DNA of 34,802 nt from an uncultured Clostridia bacterium (GTDB taxonomy: Bacteria; Bacillota; Clostridia; Oscillospirales; Acutalibacteraceae), in contig CANPXD010000013.1 of assembly GCA_947585615.1 (NCBI GenBank), positions 1-34,802 on the forward strand, written 5' to 3'. This document shows, one piece after another, positions 9,683 through 15,765 of this stretch; the stretch's first letter is position 1; each line of letters begins with the position of its first letter. Position numbers and translations under genes: made by a program. Under the pieces are notes generated by a model. That model was not told where the DNA came from. It did no database searches and saw nothing but the letters and a program-made list of their open reading frames with translations.

Positions 9683-9711
9683 TTGACAACAGCAGTTTAA
9701 TATGTTAGCAT
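9683..9711 (+). promoter_or_regulatory. Candidate sigma-A promoter for the his cluster (TTGACA-N17-TAGCAT)
   Basis: TTGACA 9683-9688, 17-nt spacer, TAGCAT 9706-9711; 42 nt upstream of the hisZG ATG. Confidence 0.6.
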
Positions 9712-9715
9712 ATTA
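9698..9715. promoter_or_regulatory. Inverted repeat TAATATG-TTAG-CATATTA overlapping the -10; candidate operator
   Basis: Perfect 7-bp arms separated by 4 nt, centred on the -10 of the candidate his promoter. Confidence 0.5.
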
Positions 9716-9752
9716 CCGCGTTAATTCACTAAAGCGTTTTTAGGAGAGCAAT

Positions 9753-11366
9753 ATGAAAAGGTATTCAAACATAACTCCCGACGGAAGTAGGGATTTTCTG
9801 TTCGAGGAATGTGATGACAGAAAGCTTGTTGAAGCAACACTTTCCGCTCTGTATAAGGAGAATTCCTATCGAAAGGTGATCACGCCTGCTATAGAATTCT
9901 TTGATGTTTTCAACTGTGGAAATACGGGAATCGAAGCAGACGAAATGTATAAGCTGACCGATAACCATGGAAGGACAACCGTACTCCGCCCCGATAATAC
10001 AATGCCGATAGCGCGTCTTGTTGCGACAAGGCTTAAGGACAGCGATTTTCCCGTAAGGCTTTATTATAACCAGAATGTTTTTGTGAGAAACAAGCAGCTT
10101 GCAGGAAGAACGGATGAAATCCCTCAGAGCGGAATTGAGTTAATCGGCGACGGATCGCTTGACGCGGATACAGAGGTTATCTCAATGGCGGTTCAGGCGC
10201 TTAAGCGCTCGCATCTTAATTCGTTTAAGATTGAAATAGGTCACGCAGGTTTCTTTAATTCAATACTGAACAGGATGAATCTTTCCGCAACGCAGAGAGC
10301 TGACATATGCAATTACATCGAGTGCAAAAATTATGCCGCGCTCGGGGATCTTCTCGAAAAAATGAGCAGAAGTCCCGAAGCCGCCGTTTTGCAAAGACTT
10401 CCGCGTCTTTTCGGAGGCGTCGAGGTGCTTGCTGAGGCAAAGAAGCTTTACGATGTAAAGGAGTCGGAAGAGGCTCTTGAGTATGTTAAAACTCTTTATG
10501 AAAAACTTGAAAAAATGGGTATTGCGGACAGTGTGATGATTGATCTCGGTCTTGTAAACCGTTCCAATTATTATACGGGAGTTATTTTCAGAGGATACGC
10601 CGAAGGCTCGGGAATGACAATTCTAACCGGCGGAAGGTATGACAATCTGCTCGCTGAGTTCGGTATGGAAGCGCCTGCAATCGGCTTTGGCGTTGACGTG
10701 AACGCATTGTGTGATGTTAAGAACGAAACGGTAAATGTTGAAAGACCGATAAGAATTGCCCTGACCAAGGGCAGACTTGAAAAAAGTTCCGTTAGACTGT
10801 TTAAAACAATGGGACTTGACACAACCGAGCTTGAAAGAAAGGGGAGACGGCTTATCCTTCCCGTGGATAACTATGAGGCGGTGTTGTCTAAAGCACCCGA
10901 TGTTATCACATATGTTGAGCACGGAGTCTGCGATATTGGGGTCGTCGGAAAGGACACAATAGTTGAACACGGCGGTTCATTCTATGAGGTTATGGATCTT
11001 AATCTCGGAAAATGCAGATTTGTTCTTGCCTGCCCCAAGGGCGTTGATTTTTACAGCGGTTACAAAAGAAAGACTGTTGCAACAAAATATCCGCATATTG
11101 CGGGCGAGTTCTTTAAATCAAAGGGTATGGATGTTGATATAATAAAGATAGAGGGCAGCGTTGAGCTTGCACCGCTGCTCGGTCTTGCGGACGGTATTGT
11201 GGACATTGTCGAAACAGGTTCAACACTGAAGGAAAACGGTCTTGAGGCTATAGAGGATATTATACCGATTTCAGCAAGAGTGATTGTTAATATGGCGTCG
11301 ATGAAGCTTCGCAAGGAGGAAATAGAAGAGTTCCTTGCGGATATGGAGCTTGCGAGCCGAGTGTGA
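9753..11366 (+). CDS. hisZG: HisZ-HisG fusion: ATP phosphoribosyltransferase regulatory subunit fused to short-form catalytic subunit
   Basis: N-terminal HisRS-like HisZ (TPDGSRDFLFEE..., TGGRYDNLLAEFG) runs in frame into HisG (RPIRIALTKGRLEKSSVRLFKTMG..., DIGVVGKDTIVEHG, VDIVETGSTLKENGL) at about residue 330 (~10743). Confidence 0.95.
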   Translation: MKRYSNITPDGSRDFLFEECDDRKLVEATLSALYKENSYRKVITPAIEFFDVFNCGNTGIEADEMYKLTDNHGRTTVLRPDNTMPIARLVATRLKDSDFPVRLYYNQNVFVRNKQLAGRTDEIPQSGIELIGDGSLDADTEVISMAVQALKRSHLNSFKIEIGHAGFFNSILNRMNLSATQRADICNYIECKNYAALGDLLEKMSRSPEAAVLQRLPRLFGGVEVLAEAKKLYDVKESEEALEYVKTLYEKLEKMGIADSVMIDLGLVNRSNYYTGVIFRGYAEGSGMTILTGGRYDNLLAEFGMEAPAIGFGVDVNALCDVKNETVNVERPIRIALTKGRLEKSSVRLFKTMGLDTTELERKGRRLILPVDNYEAVLSKAPDVITYVEHGVCDIGVVGKDTIVEHGGSFYEVMDLNLGKCRFVLACPKGVDFYSGYKRKTVATKYPHIAGEFFKSKGMDVDIIKIEGSVELAPLLGLADGIVDIVETGSTLKENGLEAIEDIIPISARVIVNMASMKLRKEEIEEFLADMELASRV

Positions 11367-11374
11367 GGTAAAAT

Positions 11375-12661
11375 ATGAAGATAACCAAAGCAAACGGAAA
11401 AAACGAATACGCACTGATAGATGAGCTTAAAAAGCGCAGCGGTGAAACCGATAAAAAAATCGTTGAAATCGTTTCATCAATTATTGAGGGTGTAAAGAAC
11501 GGTGGAGATGACGCCGTAACGGAGTATACCGTCAGGTTTGACGGAATTGCGCCTAAAAAAACAGTCATAGACGGCGATGAGCTTTCGGAATACTTTGAAA
11601 CTGCGGACGAGATATTCAAAAAAGCAATTACAGACGCGAAAAATAATATATATGATTTTCATTTGCGCCAGGCACAGCAGAGCTGGATGACGACAAAGAA
11701 AAACGGCGTCATTATGGGTCAGCGGGTGCGTGGTCTGCACCGTGTGGGCATTTATGTTCCCGGAGGGACTGCCGCATATCCCAGTTCTGTTTTAATGAAC
11801 GCTGTTCCTGCAAAAATTGCAGGAGTCAAAGAAATAATTATGGTTACGCCTCCCGGAAAGGACGGCAATCCAAATCCCGATATTATGGCAGCTGCCGCAA
11901 TTGCCGGAGTGGACAAAGTGTTCCTCTGCGGAGGGGCACAGGCGGTTGCTGCTCTTGCTTACGGAACTGAGAAAATTCCGAAAGTGGACAAAATCGTCGG
12001 TCCCGGGAACGTTTTTGTCGCAACCGCAAAAAAACTCCTGTACGGAACAGTCGATATAGATATGGTGGCAGGACCTTCTGAAATTCTTATCGTTGCGGAC
12101 AAAAGCGCAAAACCGTCTTTTCTGGCGGCAGACCTTATGAGCCAGGCAGAGCACGACAAAATGGCGTCTGCTGTTCTGTTGACAACCTCGGAAGCAATTG
12201 CGCGCGCAACGGCTAAGGAAATAGAAAAACAAGTAAAATATCTTGAAAGACAGGATATTATCTTGCAGGCACTTAATGATTATGGTGAAATTATCGTCTG
12301 TGATACTCTTTCACAGGCTATAGATTTTGCAAATGAACTTGCGCCCGAGCATCTCGAGCTTTGTGTTGAAGAACCGCTCAGATATATAGGAATGATAGAC
12401 AATGCAGGCTCTGTCTTTCTCGGAAATTGGTCTCCCGAGCCGCTCGGAGATTATTTTGCGGGGCCTAACCATGTTTTGCCAACAAGTGGAACGGCAAGAT
12501 TTTTCAGTCCGCTTTCGGTGGACAGCTTTATCAAGAAATCCTCTTTTATATATTACACGCAGGAGGAGCTTTCCAATGTGCGTGATGAAATAATAACTCT
12601 TGCGGAAACAGAGGGACTTACGGCTCACGCTAACTCAATTAAGGTAAGGTTTGAAAAATGA
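11375..12661 (+). CDS. hisD: Histidinol dehydrogenase
   Basis: GLHRVGIYVPGGTAAYPSSVLMNAVPAKIAGV, AGPSEILIVAD, GPNHVLPTSGTARF motifs. Confidence 0.98.
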   Translation: MKITKANGKNEYALIDELKKRSGETDKKIVEIVSSIIEGVKNGGDDAVTEYTVRFDGIAPKKTVIDGDELSEYFETADEIFKKAITDAKNNIYDFHLRQAQQSWMTTKKNGVIMGQRVRGLHRVGIYVPGGTAAYPSSVLMNAVPAKIAGVKEIIMVTPPGKDGNPNPDIMAAAAIAGVDKVFLCGGAQAVAALAYGTEKIPKVDKIVGPGNVFVATAKKLLYGTVDIDMVAGPSEILIVADKSAKPSFLAADLMSQAEHDKMASAVLLTTSEAIARATAKEIEKQVKYLERQDIILQALNDYGEIIVCDTLSQAIDFANELAPEHLELCVEEPLRYIGMIDNAGSVFLGNWSPEPLGDYFAGPNHVLPTSGTARFFSPLSVDSFIKKSSFIYYTQEELSNVRDEIITLAETEGLTAHANSIKVRFEK

Positions 12662-13557
12662 AACGAAGCAGACCCATAATTACCGCGGCGGTATTAATCG
12701 TTTTTGTAATAGTTGCTGTCATAAGCTATTTCAGTTCAGGCAGTCCTGTCAGCAGTTTTGATACAATCGACAATTTGCAGACAGAAAACACGATTGTAGT
12801 CAATTTTTTGGATGTCGGTCAGGGAGACAGTGAGTTTATACAGCTTCCAAACGGTAAATGTATGCTGATTGATGCAAGCACCGCTGAATATGGTGAAGAA
12901 ATATCAGATAAAATTTCATCTCTCGGTTATGAAAAGATTGATTACTTAGTGGCAACGCATCCTCATGCAGACCATATCGGCGGTATGATTGAAATTGTAA
13001 ATGATTTTGAAATCGGTGAGGTTTATATGCCAAGGGCGCAGACGGACACAAAAACGTATGAAAATCTCCTTACCGCAATGTCGGATAAAGAACTTTCCGT
13101 AACCGCGGCTGCTGCCGGGAAGCTTGTTTTCAGCGAGGGAGATCTTATGGTTGAACTGCTTGCGCCCGTCAGTGAAAAATATGATGACCTGAATAATTAT
13201 TCGGCGGTTGTAAAACTTGATTACGGTAACAACAGCTTTCTGTTTATGGGAGACGCCGAAGAAGTTTCGGAGCGTGAAATTTTAAACAGCCTGCCAAAAG
13301 AGCAACTGAAAGCAGATGTTGTCAAGGTGGGACATCACGGCAGCAGCTCATCATCGTGTGAGGATTTTGTTTATGCCGTCAGTCCCGATTATGCTGTTTT
13401 TGAAGTCGGGGCAGGTAATTCCTATGGGCATCCGCATTCCGAATCACTTGAAAGATGGCAACGTGTCGGTGCTGAAATTCTGAGAACAGATTTACAGGGA
13501 GACATTTCGGTTGTTTCTGATGGAAACGATCTGACTGTTGTCAGTGAAAGGAACTAA
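12658..13557 (+). CDS. ComEC/Rec2-like metallo-beta-lactamase-fold hydrolase with N-terminal membrane anchor
   Basis: N-terminal hydrophobic segment; FLDVGQGDSEFIQLPNGKCMLIDA, THPHADHIGGM, VVKVGHHGSSSSS; ATGA overlap with hisD. Confidence 0.9.
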   Translation: MKRSRPIITAAVLIVFVIVAVISYFSSGSPVSSFDTIDNLQTENTIVVNFLDVGQGDSEFIQLPNGKCMLIDASTAEYGEEISDKISSLGYEKIDYLVATHPHADHIGGMIEIVNDFEIGEVYMPRAQTDTKTYENLLTAMSDKELSVTAAAAGKLVFSEGDLMVELLAPVSEKYDDLNNYSAVVKLDYGNNSFLFMGDAEEVSEREILNSLPKEQLKADVVKVGHHGSSSSSCEDFVYAVSPDYAVFEVGAGNSYGHPHSESLERWQRVGAEILRTDLQGDISVVSDGNDLTVVSERN

Positions 13558-13782: not shown

Positions 13783-14361
13783 ATGAGAACTGCCTTAATT
13801 GAAAGAAACACCAAAGAAACACAAATCAGGCTTGAGCTTGCCCTTGACGGAGGAAATGTTGATGTTGCAACGGGAATAGGATTTTTTGATCATATGCTCA
13901 CCGCTTTCGGAGTTCACGGAGGTTTCGGTCTCAAGATACGTGTAAAGGGCGATCTTGAGGTAGACACTCACCATACTGTTGAGGATACGGGAATCGCGCT
14001 CGGAACGGCATTCAGGCAGGCACTGGGAGATATGGGCGGCATCAGCCGCTATGGTTCTTTTTACATTCCGATGGATGAGAGTCTGGCATTCTGTTCCCTT
14101 GATATTTCAAACAGACCTTTTCTTGTTTTTAAAGCCGATTTCAGCGAGGAACGCTGCGGCGATTATGAAACGTGCTGCACAGAGGAGTTTTTCCGCGCCT
14201 TTGCAATGAATTCAGGAATAACGCTTCACATAAATGTGCCTTACGGTTCAAATTCTCATCACAAAACAGAGGCCGTTTTCAAGGCTGTTGCCCACGCAAT
14301 GAAGGCTGCGGTGACAGAAAACGGCAAAGGTGTTCTTTCCACTAAGGGCATTCTTGCCTGA
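13783..14361 (+). CDS. hisB: Imidazoleglycerol-phosphate dehydratase
   Basis: GIGFFDHMLTAFGVHGGF, DTHHTVEDTGI, NSHHKTEAVFKA motifs. Confidence 0.98.
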   Translation: MRTALIERNTKETQIRLELALDGGNVDVATGIGFFDHMLTAFGVHGGFGLKIRVKGDLEVDTHHTVEDTGIALGTAFRQALGDMGGISRYGSFYIPMDESLAFCSLDISNRPFLVFKADFSEERCGDYETCCTEEFFRAFAMNSGITLHINVPYGSNSHHKTEAVFKAVAHAMKAAVTENGKGVLSTKGILA

Positions 14362-14405: not shown

Positions 14406-15119
14406 ATGATTATCTTCCCGGCAATAGATATAATCGACGGAAAGCCCGTGCGTCTCTATAAAGGTGATTTTTCAACTGCAAAGCAGGTTGCCCAAGACGC
14501 CGTTGAAACGGCATACAGATTTAAAAAAGCAGGCGCGCAATGGATACATATGGTGGATCTGGACGGATCGGTGCAAAAAAAGAGAGTGAACAGCAAAATT
14601 TTTATTTCAGTCGCTGCGGAAACAGGATTGAAGGTTGAACTTGGCGGAGGTATCCGCACGATGGATGACATTTCCTTTTATGCCGAAAACAGAATAAGCC
14701 GTATTATATTAGGCTCTGCCGCTCTCAAAAATCCGAGTCTTGTAAAAGAGGCAGTCAGAGAATTCGGGGATTTGATTGCCGTTGGAATAGATGCAAGGGA
14801 CGGCTATGCCGCCGCCGAGGGCTGGACTGAAAGTACAGATATTTATTTTACCGACCTCGCTAAGCAGATGGAACAGGCAGGAGTCGAAACAATTATTTAT
14901 ACCGACATTTCACGTGACGGAACGCTGAGCGGACCGAATATCAAACAGCTTGCCGAAATAAACGGTGCGGTTTCCTGCAATGTGACTGCTTCCGGAGGAA
15001 TAACCGATATTGGCGATATTCTCGCTTTGCGCAAAGAAAATCTTTACGGCGCAATCTGCGGCAAAAGTATTTATGACGGCACTCTGGAGCTTAGAGACGC
15101 CATAGAGGTGTGCAAATGA
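14406..15119 (+). CDS. hisA: ProFAR isomerase HisA
   Basis: [58 protein letters not shown]; HisA rather than HisF. Confidence 0.95.
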
Positions 15120-15442
15120 TTGATCTAGAAAAATATTTTAAAAAAGCGGATCTGATTCCCGCAATAATTCAGGAGGAAAGCACGGGAGAAGTTCTTATGC
15201 TTGCGTATATGAACAGGGAGTCGTTGAAAAAAACGCTTGAAACAGGCTACACATGGTTCTGGTCACGCAGCAGAAAAGAGCTTTGGAACAAGGGCGCGAC
15301 AAGCGGCCATTTTCAGAAAATAGTTTCTATTTACTCAGACTGTGACGACGATACGCTTTTAATCAGGGTGATACAAACTGGCGCGGCGTGTCATACGGGA
15401 AGCCACAGTTGTTTTTTCAATGAAATCAAGGGAGAGTTTTGA
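15116..15442 (+). CDS. hisI: Phosphoribosyl-AMP cyclohydrolase
   Basis: [48 protein letters not shown] overlap with hisA (track start 15110 is an upstream GTG). Confidence 0.96.
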
Positions 15443-15765
15443 TGAACGTTATCAAGAATGAATATCAGGTTATTTTAGACAGAAGAAGAGAACAGGCAGA
15501 AGGTTCTTACACTTCGTATCTGTTTGAACAGGGTATAGACAAAATACTTAAAAAGGTCGGCGAGGAATGTACCGAAATGGTTATCGCGGCAAAAAATAAT
15601 GATAAGGCGGAAACAGTTTACGAAATTGCCGACCTGCTTTATCATACGCTCGTCATGATGGCAAATCAGGGAATCACTCCCGATGATATAGAAGCAGAGC
15701 TTGAAAAAAGAGCAGAAAAACGCTCTAATCTGAAAAAATTTCATCAGGTGGATAAGAATTCATAA
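15442..15765 (+). CDS. hisE: Phosphoribosyl-ATP pyrophosphatase
   Basis: SYTSYLFEQGIDKILKKVGEECTEMVIAAKN, EIADLLYHTLVMM; separate from hisI. Confidence 0.95.
   Translation: MNVIKNEYQVILDRRREQAEGSYTSYLFEQGIDKILKKVGEECTEMVIAAKNNDKAETVYEIADLLYHTLVMMANQGITPDDIEAELEKRAEKRSNLKKFHQVDKNS

Follow-up and report, generated by a model that had tools for sequence, protein, structure and literature searches.

A HisZ-HisG gene fusion without the HisZ C-terminal domain heads a clostridial histidine operon and has evolved several times

Results

We analysed a stretch of 34,802 nucleotides (the window) from an uncultured Clostridia bacterium of the Acutalibacteraceae (GCA_947585615.1, contig CANPXD010000013.1, positions 1 to 34,802). 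At 9753-11366, on the forward strand like all features of the window described below, lies a gene of 537 codons plus a stop, here called hisZG, which starts with ATG, is preceded by AGGAG at 9742-9746, six bases upstream, and has no internal stop. According to profile boundaries, its 537-residue product comprises a HisRS-like HisZ core domain without the C-terminal domain (residues 3-320; 9759-10712), an 11-residue linker, DVKNETVNVER (residues 321-331; 10713-10745), and a short-form HisG (residues 332-537; 10746-11363). The first-pass annotation, made from the letters alone, had described a single 537-residue frame with HisZ followed by HisG and no stop between them; curated Pfam and NCBIfam domain matches confirmed this arrangement, and the boundaries proposed there (HisZ ending near residue 325, HisG starting near residue 331) agree with those of the profiles.

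The Pfam tRNA-synt_His model matched residues 11-319 over its full length (E 4e-74). The NCBIfam model hisZ_biosyn_reg (TIGR00443) matched residues 13-324 with 315 bits, above its cut-off of 272, whereas the HisZ half reached only 188 bits with the hisS (HisRS) model TIGR00442, for which the cut-off is 287. The nearest solved chain to the HisZ half is itself a HisZ (3od1; E 1e-59), residues 9-325 of the query aligning with residues 13-329 of its 400. In the second half, NCBIfam hisG (TIGR00070) matched residues 333-512 with 190 bits against a cut-off of 76, and Pfam HisG matched residues 380-532. Since the protein stops at residue 537, the HisG part is 206 residues long, the length of the short form; the C-terminal regulatory domain of long-form HisGL is absent from the fused protein, the matching models being those of the HisG catalytic part and of HisZ/HisRS only. 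A chance match is excluded by the E-values together with conservation in about 35 species genomes. The gene at 9753-11366 is a genuine HisZ-HisG fusion: one chain carries both the regulatory and the catalytic part of the enzyme that opens histidine synthesis, parts that are usually two proteins.

The genome (1.98 Mb in 125 contigs, 97% complete) contains the fused gene as its sole HisG. Besides it there is one more HisRS-like gene, C7 (27% identity), which seems to encode HisRS proper, so neither a separate HisZ nor a separate HisG stands in for the fusion. hisZG is the first gene of an operon with the order hisZG-hisD-(MBL-fold gene)-hisB-hisA-hisI-hisE, flanked by polC and recJ: hisD (11375-12661), a metallo-beta-lactamase (MBL)-fold protein resembling the C-terminal part of ComEC (12658-13557), hisB (13783-14361), hisA (14406-15119), hisI (15110-15442) and hisE (15439-15765). 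hisH lies outside this operon, on another contig (C49, 3782-4381). Some members of the fused clade, such as loci L003-L021 and L035-L037, have the MBL-fold gene in the operon; it is missing at that place in others (L023, L025, L028-L033) and in the unfused sisters.

The gap between polC and the ATG measures 86 bases and contains a promoter (9683-9711), with TTGACA at 9683-9688, a 17-nt spacer and an extended -10 element, TGtTAGCAT, at 9703-9711, which by eye is kept in the upstream regions of relatives. Just 3' of the -10 element, a 20-mer picked out by eye, cgcGTTAattcacTAAAgcg (9717-9736), is a candidate HisR operator; compared by eye and not by a scored match, it resembles the published Firmicutes HisR operator consensus cacTTTAnnnnnnTAAAgtg (PMC9413887). 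Taken together (9683-9736), the extended -10 promoter TGnTAGCATATTA and the HisR-like palindrome downstream of it are strongly conserved in fused and unfused relatives alike. A repressor gene of the TrpR family, to which HisR belongs, is present in the genome (C16). Scans of the window with Rfam and tRNA models gave no match, hence no T-box leader. Given the promoter, the candidate operator and the TrpR-family gene, the operon appears to be transcribed under the same kind of control as ordinary his operons of clostridia.

Scanning the GTDB species genomes yielded 40 loci. In L003-L037 the two genes are fused into a single reading frame, truncated in two cases by the end of a contig, with 62-87% identity to the window in HisZ and 81-93% in HisG. 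L038-L042 carry separate hisZ and hisG genes at the corresponding position, within the order ispG-polC-hisZ-hisG-hisD-hisB-hisA-hisI-hisE; their HisZ is full-length and about 48% identical, and hisZ, of about 398 residues, overlaps hisG. The fused gene occupies the unchanged place of the pair in the operon. The first-pass annotation had named a frameshift or stop near position 10740 as a finding that would speak against the fusion; the junction is open in the same frame in all fused relatives. Fused genes are also found in two cultured species with complete circular records, Monoglobus pectinilyticus (556 residues; L165, 3962-5632) and Collinsella aerofaciens (571 residues; L166, 3992-5707), where the records annotate them as hisZ only and as hisG only, respectively.

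To describe prevalence we counted as fused any open frame of at least 460 residues that was checked in the DNA; in even, slightly overlapping samples of genomes, about 14 of 118 HisG-bearing ones were fused in the order, about 9 of 115 in the class and about 2 of 123 in the phylum. Within the same family the count was at least 8 of 150 genomes, and every one of the seven HisG-bearing genomes drawn from one of the order's families (f13) was fused. By these counts, only a minority of genomes carry the fusion, which is nonetheless fixed in some groups.

Separate HisZ proteins extend 63-179 residues (median 80) past the core in 73 of 76 loci, whereas in every fused row no such tail is left and HisG follows directly after the core end, through a linker of 11-20 residues in the clostridial fused clades and of 24 in Collinsella. 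The window's HisZ, too, is without the C-terminal domain usual in clostridial HisZ. Among seven independent pairs of fused and separate lineages, tail loss accompanies fusion in six or seven and the reverse is never seen (p 0.016-0.031). Three separate HisZ proteins (L080, L141 and L150) have no C-terminal tail, so the tail can be lost without fusion. In 11 of the 76 separate loci, hisZ and hisG share one frame and are parted by just one stop codon; although a tail-retaining fusion would be an easy mutation there, none was seen among the fused rows. Either such fusions fail to fold into a working complex, or deletion is the usual route to fusion. A sequence search with the lost tail against Pfam and solved structures gave nothing significant, the only hit being a non-significant one to the C-terminal part of a HisRS (E 0.13).

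Residues expected to matter for function are retained. In HisZ, Thr83, Gln125, Gly127, Glu129, Asp264, Tyr273 and Tyr274 are kept in all fused rows, as are Lys339, Arg365, Asp401, Lys445, Gly468, Gly489 and Thr491 in HisG; Asp81 (HisZ) and Arg341 (HisG) are kept in all but one. Of the positions that are near-invariant in the separate proteins, the fused ones retain nearly all in HisG and most in HisZ; at the listed histidine-pocket and catalytic positions, Collinsella has the most divergent fused protein. The window's HisZ contains Asp81, Thr83, Gln125, Glu129, Tyr273 and Tyr274, which from their homology with HisRS we take to form the histidine pocket, and the PRPP loop of its HisG, ETGSTL, occupies residues 487-492. 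In P. arcticus HisGS the catalytic arginines are residues 32 and 56; Arg341 and Arg365 align with them, presumably as their counterparts, with a spacing of 24 residues in both. An AlphaFold model of the fused chain, built on a shallow alignment, was poor, with a mean pLDDT of 59.5, and does not enter the interpretation.

Discussion

In the known enzyme, a HisZ tetramer carries a HisG dimer on each of two sides, and HisZ both activates catalysis and mediates its inhibition (PMC10795190, PMC9734150); in P. arcticus, two HisG arginines are positioned by HisZ (PMC9734150). Because the key residues are kept and the arginine spacing matches that of P. arcticus, the simplest reading is that this mechanism operates on one chain. 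hisZG very probably encodes a single-chain short-form ATP phosphoribosyltransferase, joined in place, in which the equivalent of a HisZ4-HisG4 assembly would be built from four chains, with HisZ activating the enzyme and carrying its feedback. We propose that neighbouring hisZ and hisG genes were fused where they stood through loss of the 3' end of hisZ (the C-terminal domain and the stop) and the intergenic bases, a deletion that would have left HisG behind the HisRS-like core via the 11-residue linker. Four fused chains would most likely form the equivalent of the octamer, the four HisZ parts making up its core and the HisG dimers flanking it on either side; the HisZ half would then speed catalysis when histidine is absent and block it when histidine is bound. 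Translation as one chain would set the HisZ:HisG ratio at 1:1, and such a ratio might in itself be of benefit.

The first-pass annotation suggested that fusion may alter histidine feedback. Some change is possible, and an enzyme made constitutively active or otherwise altered in its feedback by tethering of HisG and loss of the HisZ C-terminal domain would fit the absence of the tail from all fused rows analysed and the link between tail loss and fusion across the independent pairs; we nevertheless consider it unlikely, because the histidine-pocket residues are unchanged and because the HisZ proteins of L. lactis and T. maritima, which likewise have no tail, still build a holoenzyme, the latter solved with histidine bound (1USY; PMC10795190). 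As stated, the suggestion is therefore unsupported, and from the residues retained, feedback most likely persists in the fused enzyme.

With respect to the missing domain, the fusion resembles the HisZ of L. lactis and T. maritima and differs from those of A. baumannii and P. arcticus, which possess a C-terminal domain (PMC10795190). Its absence from the former two implies that the enzyme itself can do without this domain, which does not define HisZ as a whole; we assume that the clostridial tail is the same domain. It is conceivable, though we would put it forward only tentatively, that the geometry of the octamer imposes a rule by which HisZ has to lose its C-terminal domain before it can be joined to HisG, a rule that would have acted many times in Clostridia and once in Coriobacteriia, and that the role of the lost domain is needless in a tethered enzyme.

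The HisZ-HisG fusion evolved several separate times. In a maximum-likelihood tree of HisZ and HisG pairs from 99 loci, fused and separate, the state of the genes requires nine changes, seven of them forced by strongly supported branches; after removal of five long or distant rows, seven changes are required, five of them forced. The clade of the window, with 12 fused rows on a strongly supported branch beside the separate pairs of L038 and L041, represents one clear event. All fusions are alike in gene order and junction region, and parsimony counts are blind to the direction of change, gain or loss, as would suit one ancient fusion that passed down to every fused lineage, or a spread by gene transfer. 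Constraining the fused rows to one clade, however, lowers the log-likelihood by 883 and is rejected (AU p 2.35e-6), and the number of changes and of forced branches also speaks against it; moreover, each reversal would have to regain the lost HisZ domain, and splitting would have to restore it in many lineages. A single origin or spread by transfer is therefore very improbable.

The 1:1 synthesis proposed in the first-pass annotation follows only if no free HisG is made. It would fail if the mRNA also gave free HisG through an internal start, so that fused and separate subunits occurred together. In 19 of 32 fused relatives, the linker does contain an in-frame ATG a little ahead of the RP-[IL]-RIALTKGR stretch with which HisG starts, and some free HisG might be made there; the window itself has no such codon. 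That ATG has no Shine-Dalgarno-like sequence upstream, however, eight of the 32 have no start codon whatever at the junction, and a start codon together with a Shine-Dalgarno-like sequence is absent in 30 and present in only two. We rate internal initiation as very improbable, and in the lack of a conserved internal start 1:1 synthesis from one chain finds support.

That an assembly or frameshift error fused two normal genes might be suspected of a 125-contig assembly whose fused relatives are mostly metagenome assemblies as well, but this reading is already refuted by those relatives and has a negligible probability, since about 35 species genomes share the open frame, Monoglobus pectinilyticus and Collinsella aerofaciens have fused genes in records that are complete and circular, and no base error can remove an entire C-terminal HisZ domain.

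The fusion shares two homologous parts and their key residues with the hetero-octamers of separate HisZ and HisGS (L. lactis 1Z7M, P. arcticus 5M8H, A. baumannii 8OY0), but has both parts on one chain. In this it is like long-form HisGL (E. coli 1H3D, M. tuberculosis 1NH8), also a regulated enzyme from one gene with catalytic and regulatory parts joined; its regulatory part, however, is an N-terminal HisRS-like HisZ instead of a C-terminal regulatory domain, and its HisG half is of the short form. The first-pass annotation had thought that such fusions may be known in some Clostridia. hisZ-hisG fusions are indeed named once, in a single sentence on his gene fusions "in a variety of genomes" (PMC9413887); they are of the same kind, and the part of that paper which names them gives no case, boundary, distribution or domain loss. 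A 2007 survey of his gene fusions cited there does not contain the word hisZ (PMC1963479), and beyond that sentence we found no description of any hisZ-hisG fusion in an open-access literature of 5.4 million papers. Automatically generated entries for such proteins may already exist in protein databases. The parts and the mechanism are known, and the one-chain, tail-less, repeatedly evolved form appears to be undescribed. The earlier interpretation was right about the fusion and its 1:1 synthesis and finds no support on feedback; it had also missed the domain loss, the repeated origin and the many clostridial groups involved.

Short-form ATP phosphoribosyltransferase serves as a model of how one protein controls another allosterically, and natural one-chain versions are ready-made constructs for learning what the ratio of the subunits, their tethering and the C-terminal domain of HisZ contribute. 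If fused genes are named hisZ only or hisG only, a survey of gene content could conclude that a step of histidine synthesis is absent.

Several long frames proved on inspection to be other than tail-retaining or additional fusions. Nine genomes of the family sample have frames of 605-847 residues across both genes, with a stop after hisZ in all nine, so that the genes are separate; four long HisG frames (G196, G346, G430 and G476) are overlapping frames rather than fusions. The smallest fusion seen (L094, genome G174, 1584-2972; 463 residues), in which HisZ is without the tail and part of the mid-core, is known from one contig of one assembly. In L085 (G254), a stop lies within the HisZ half of the fused gene (150 + 404 residues), which is either a pseudogene or an assembly error; four relatives of the same family have the gene intact.
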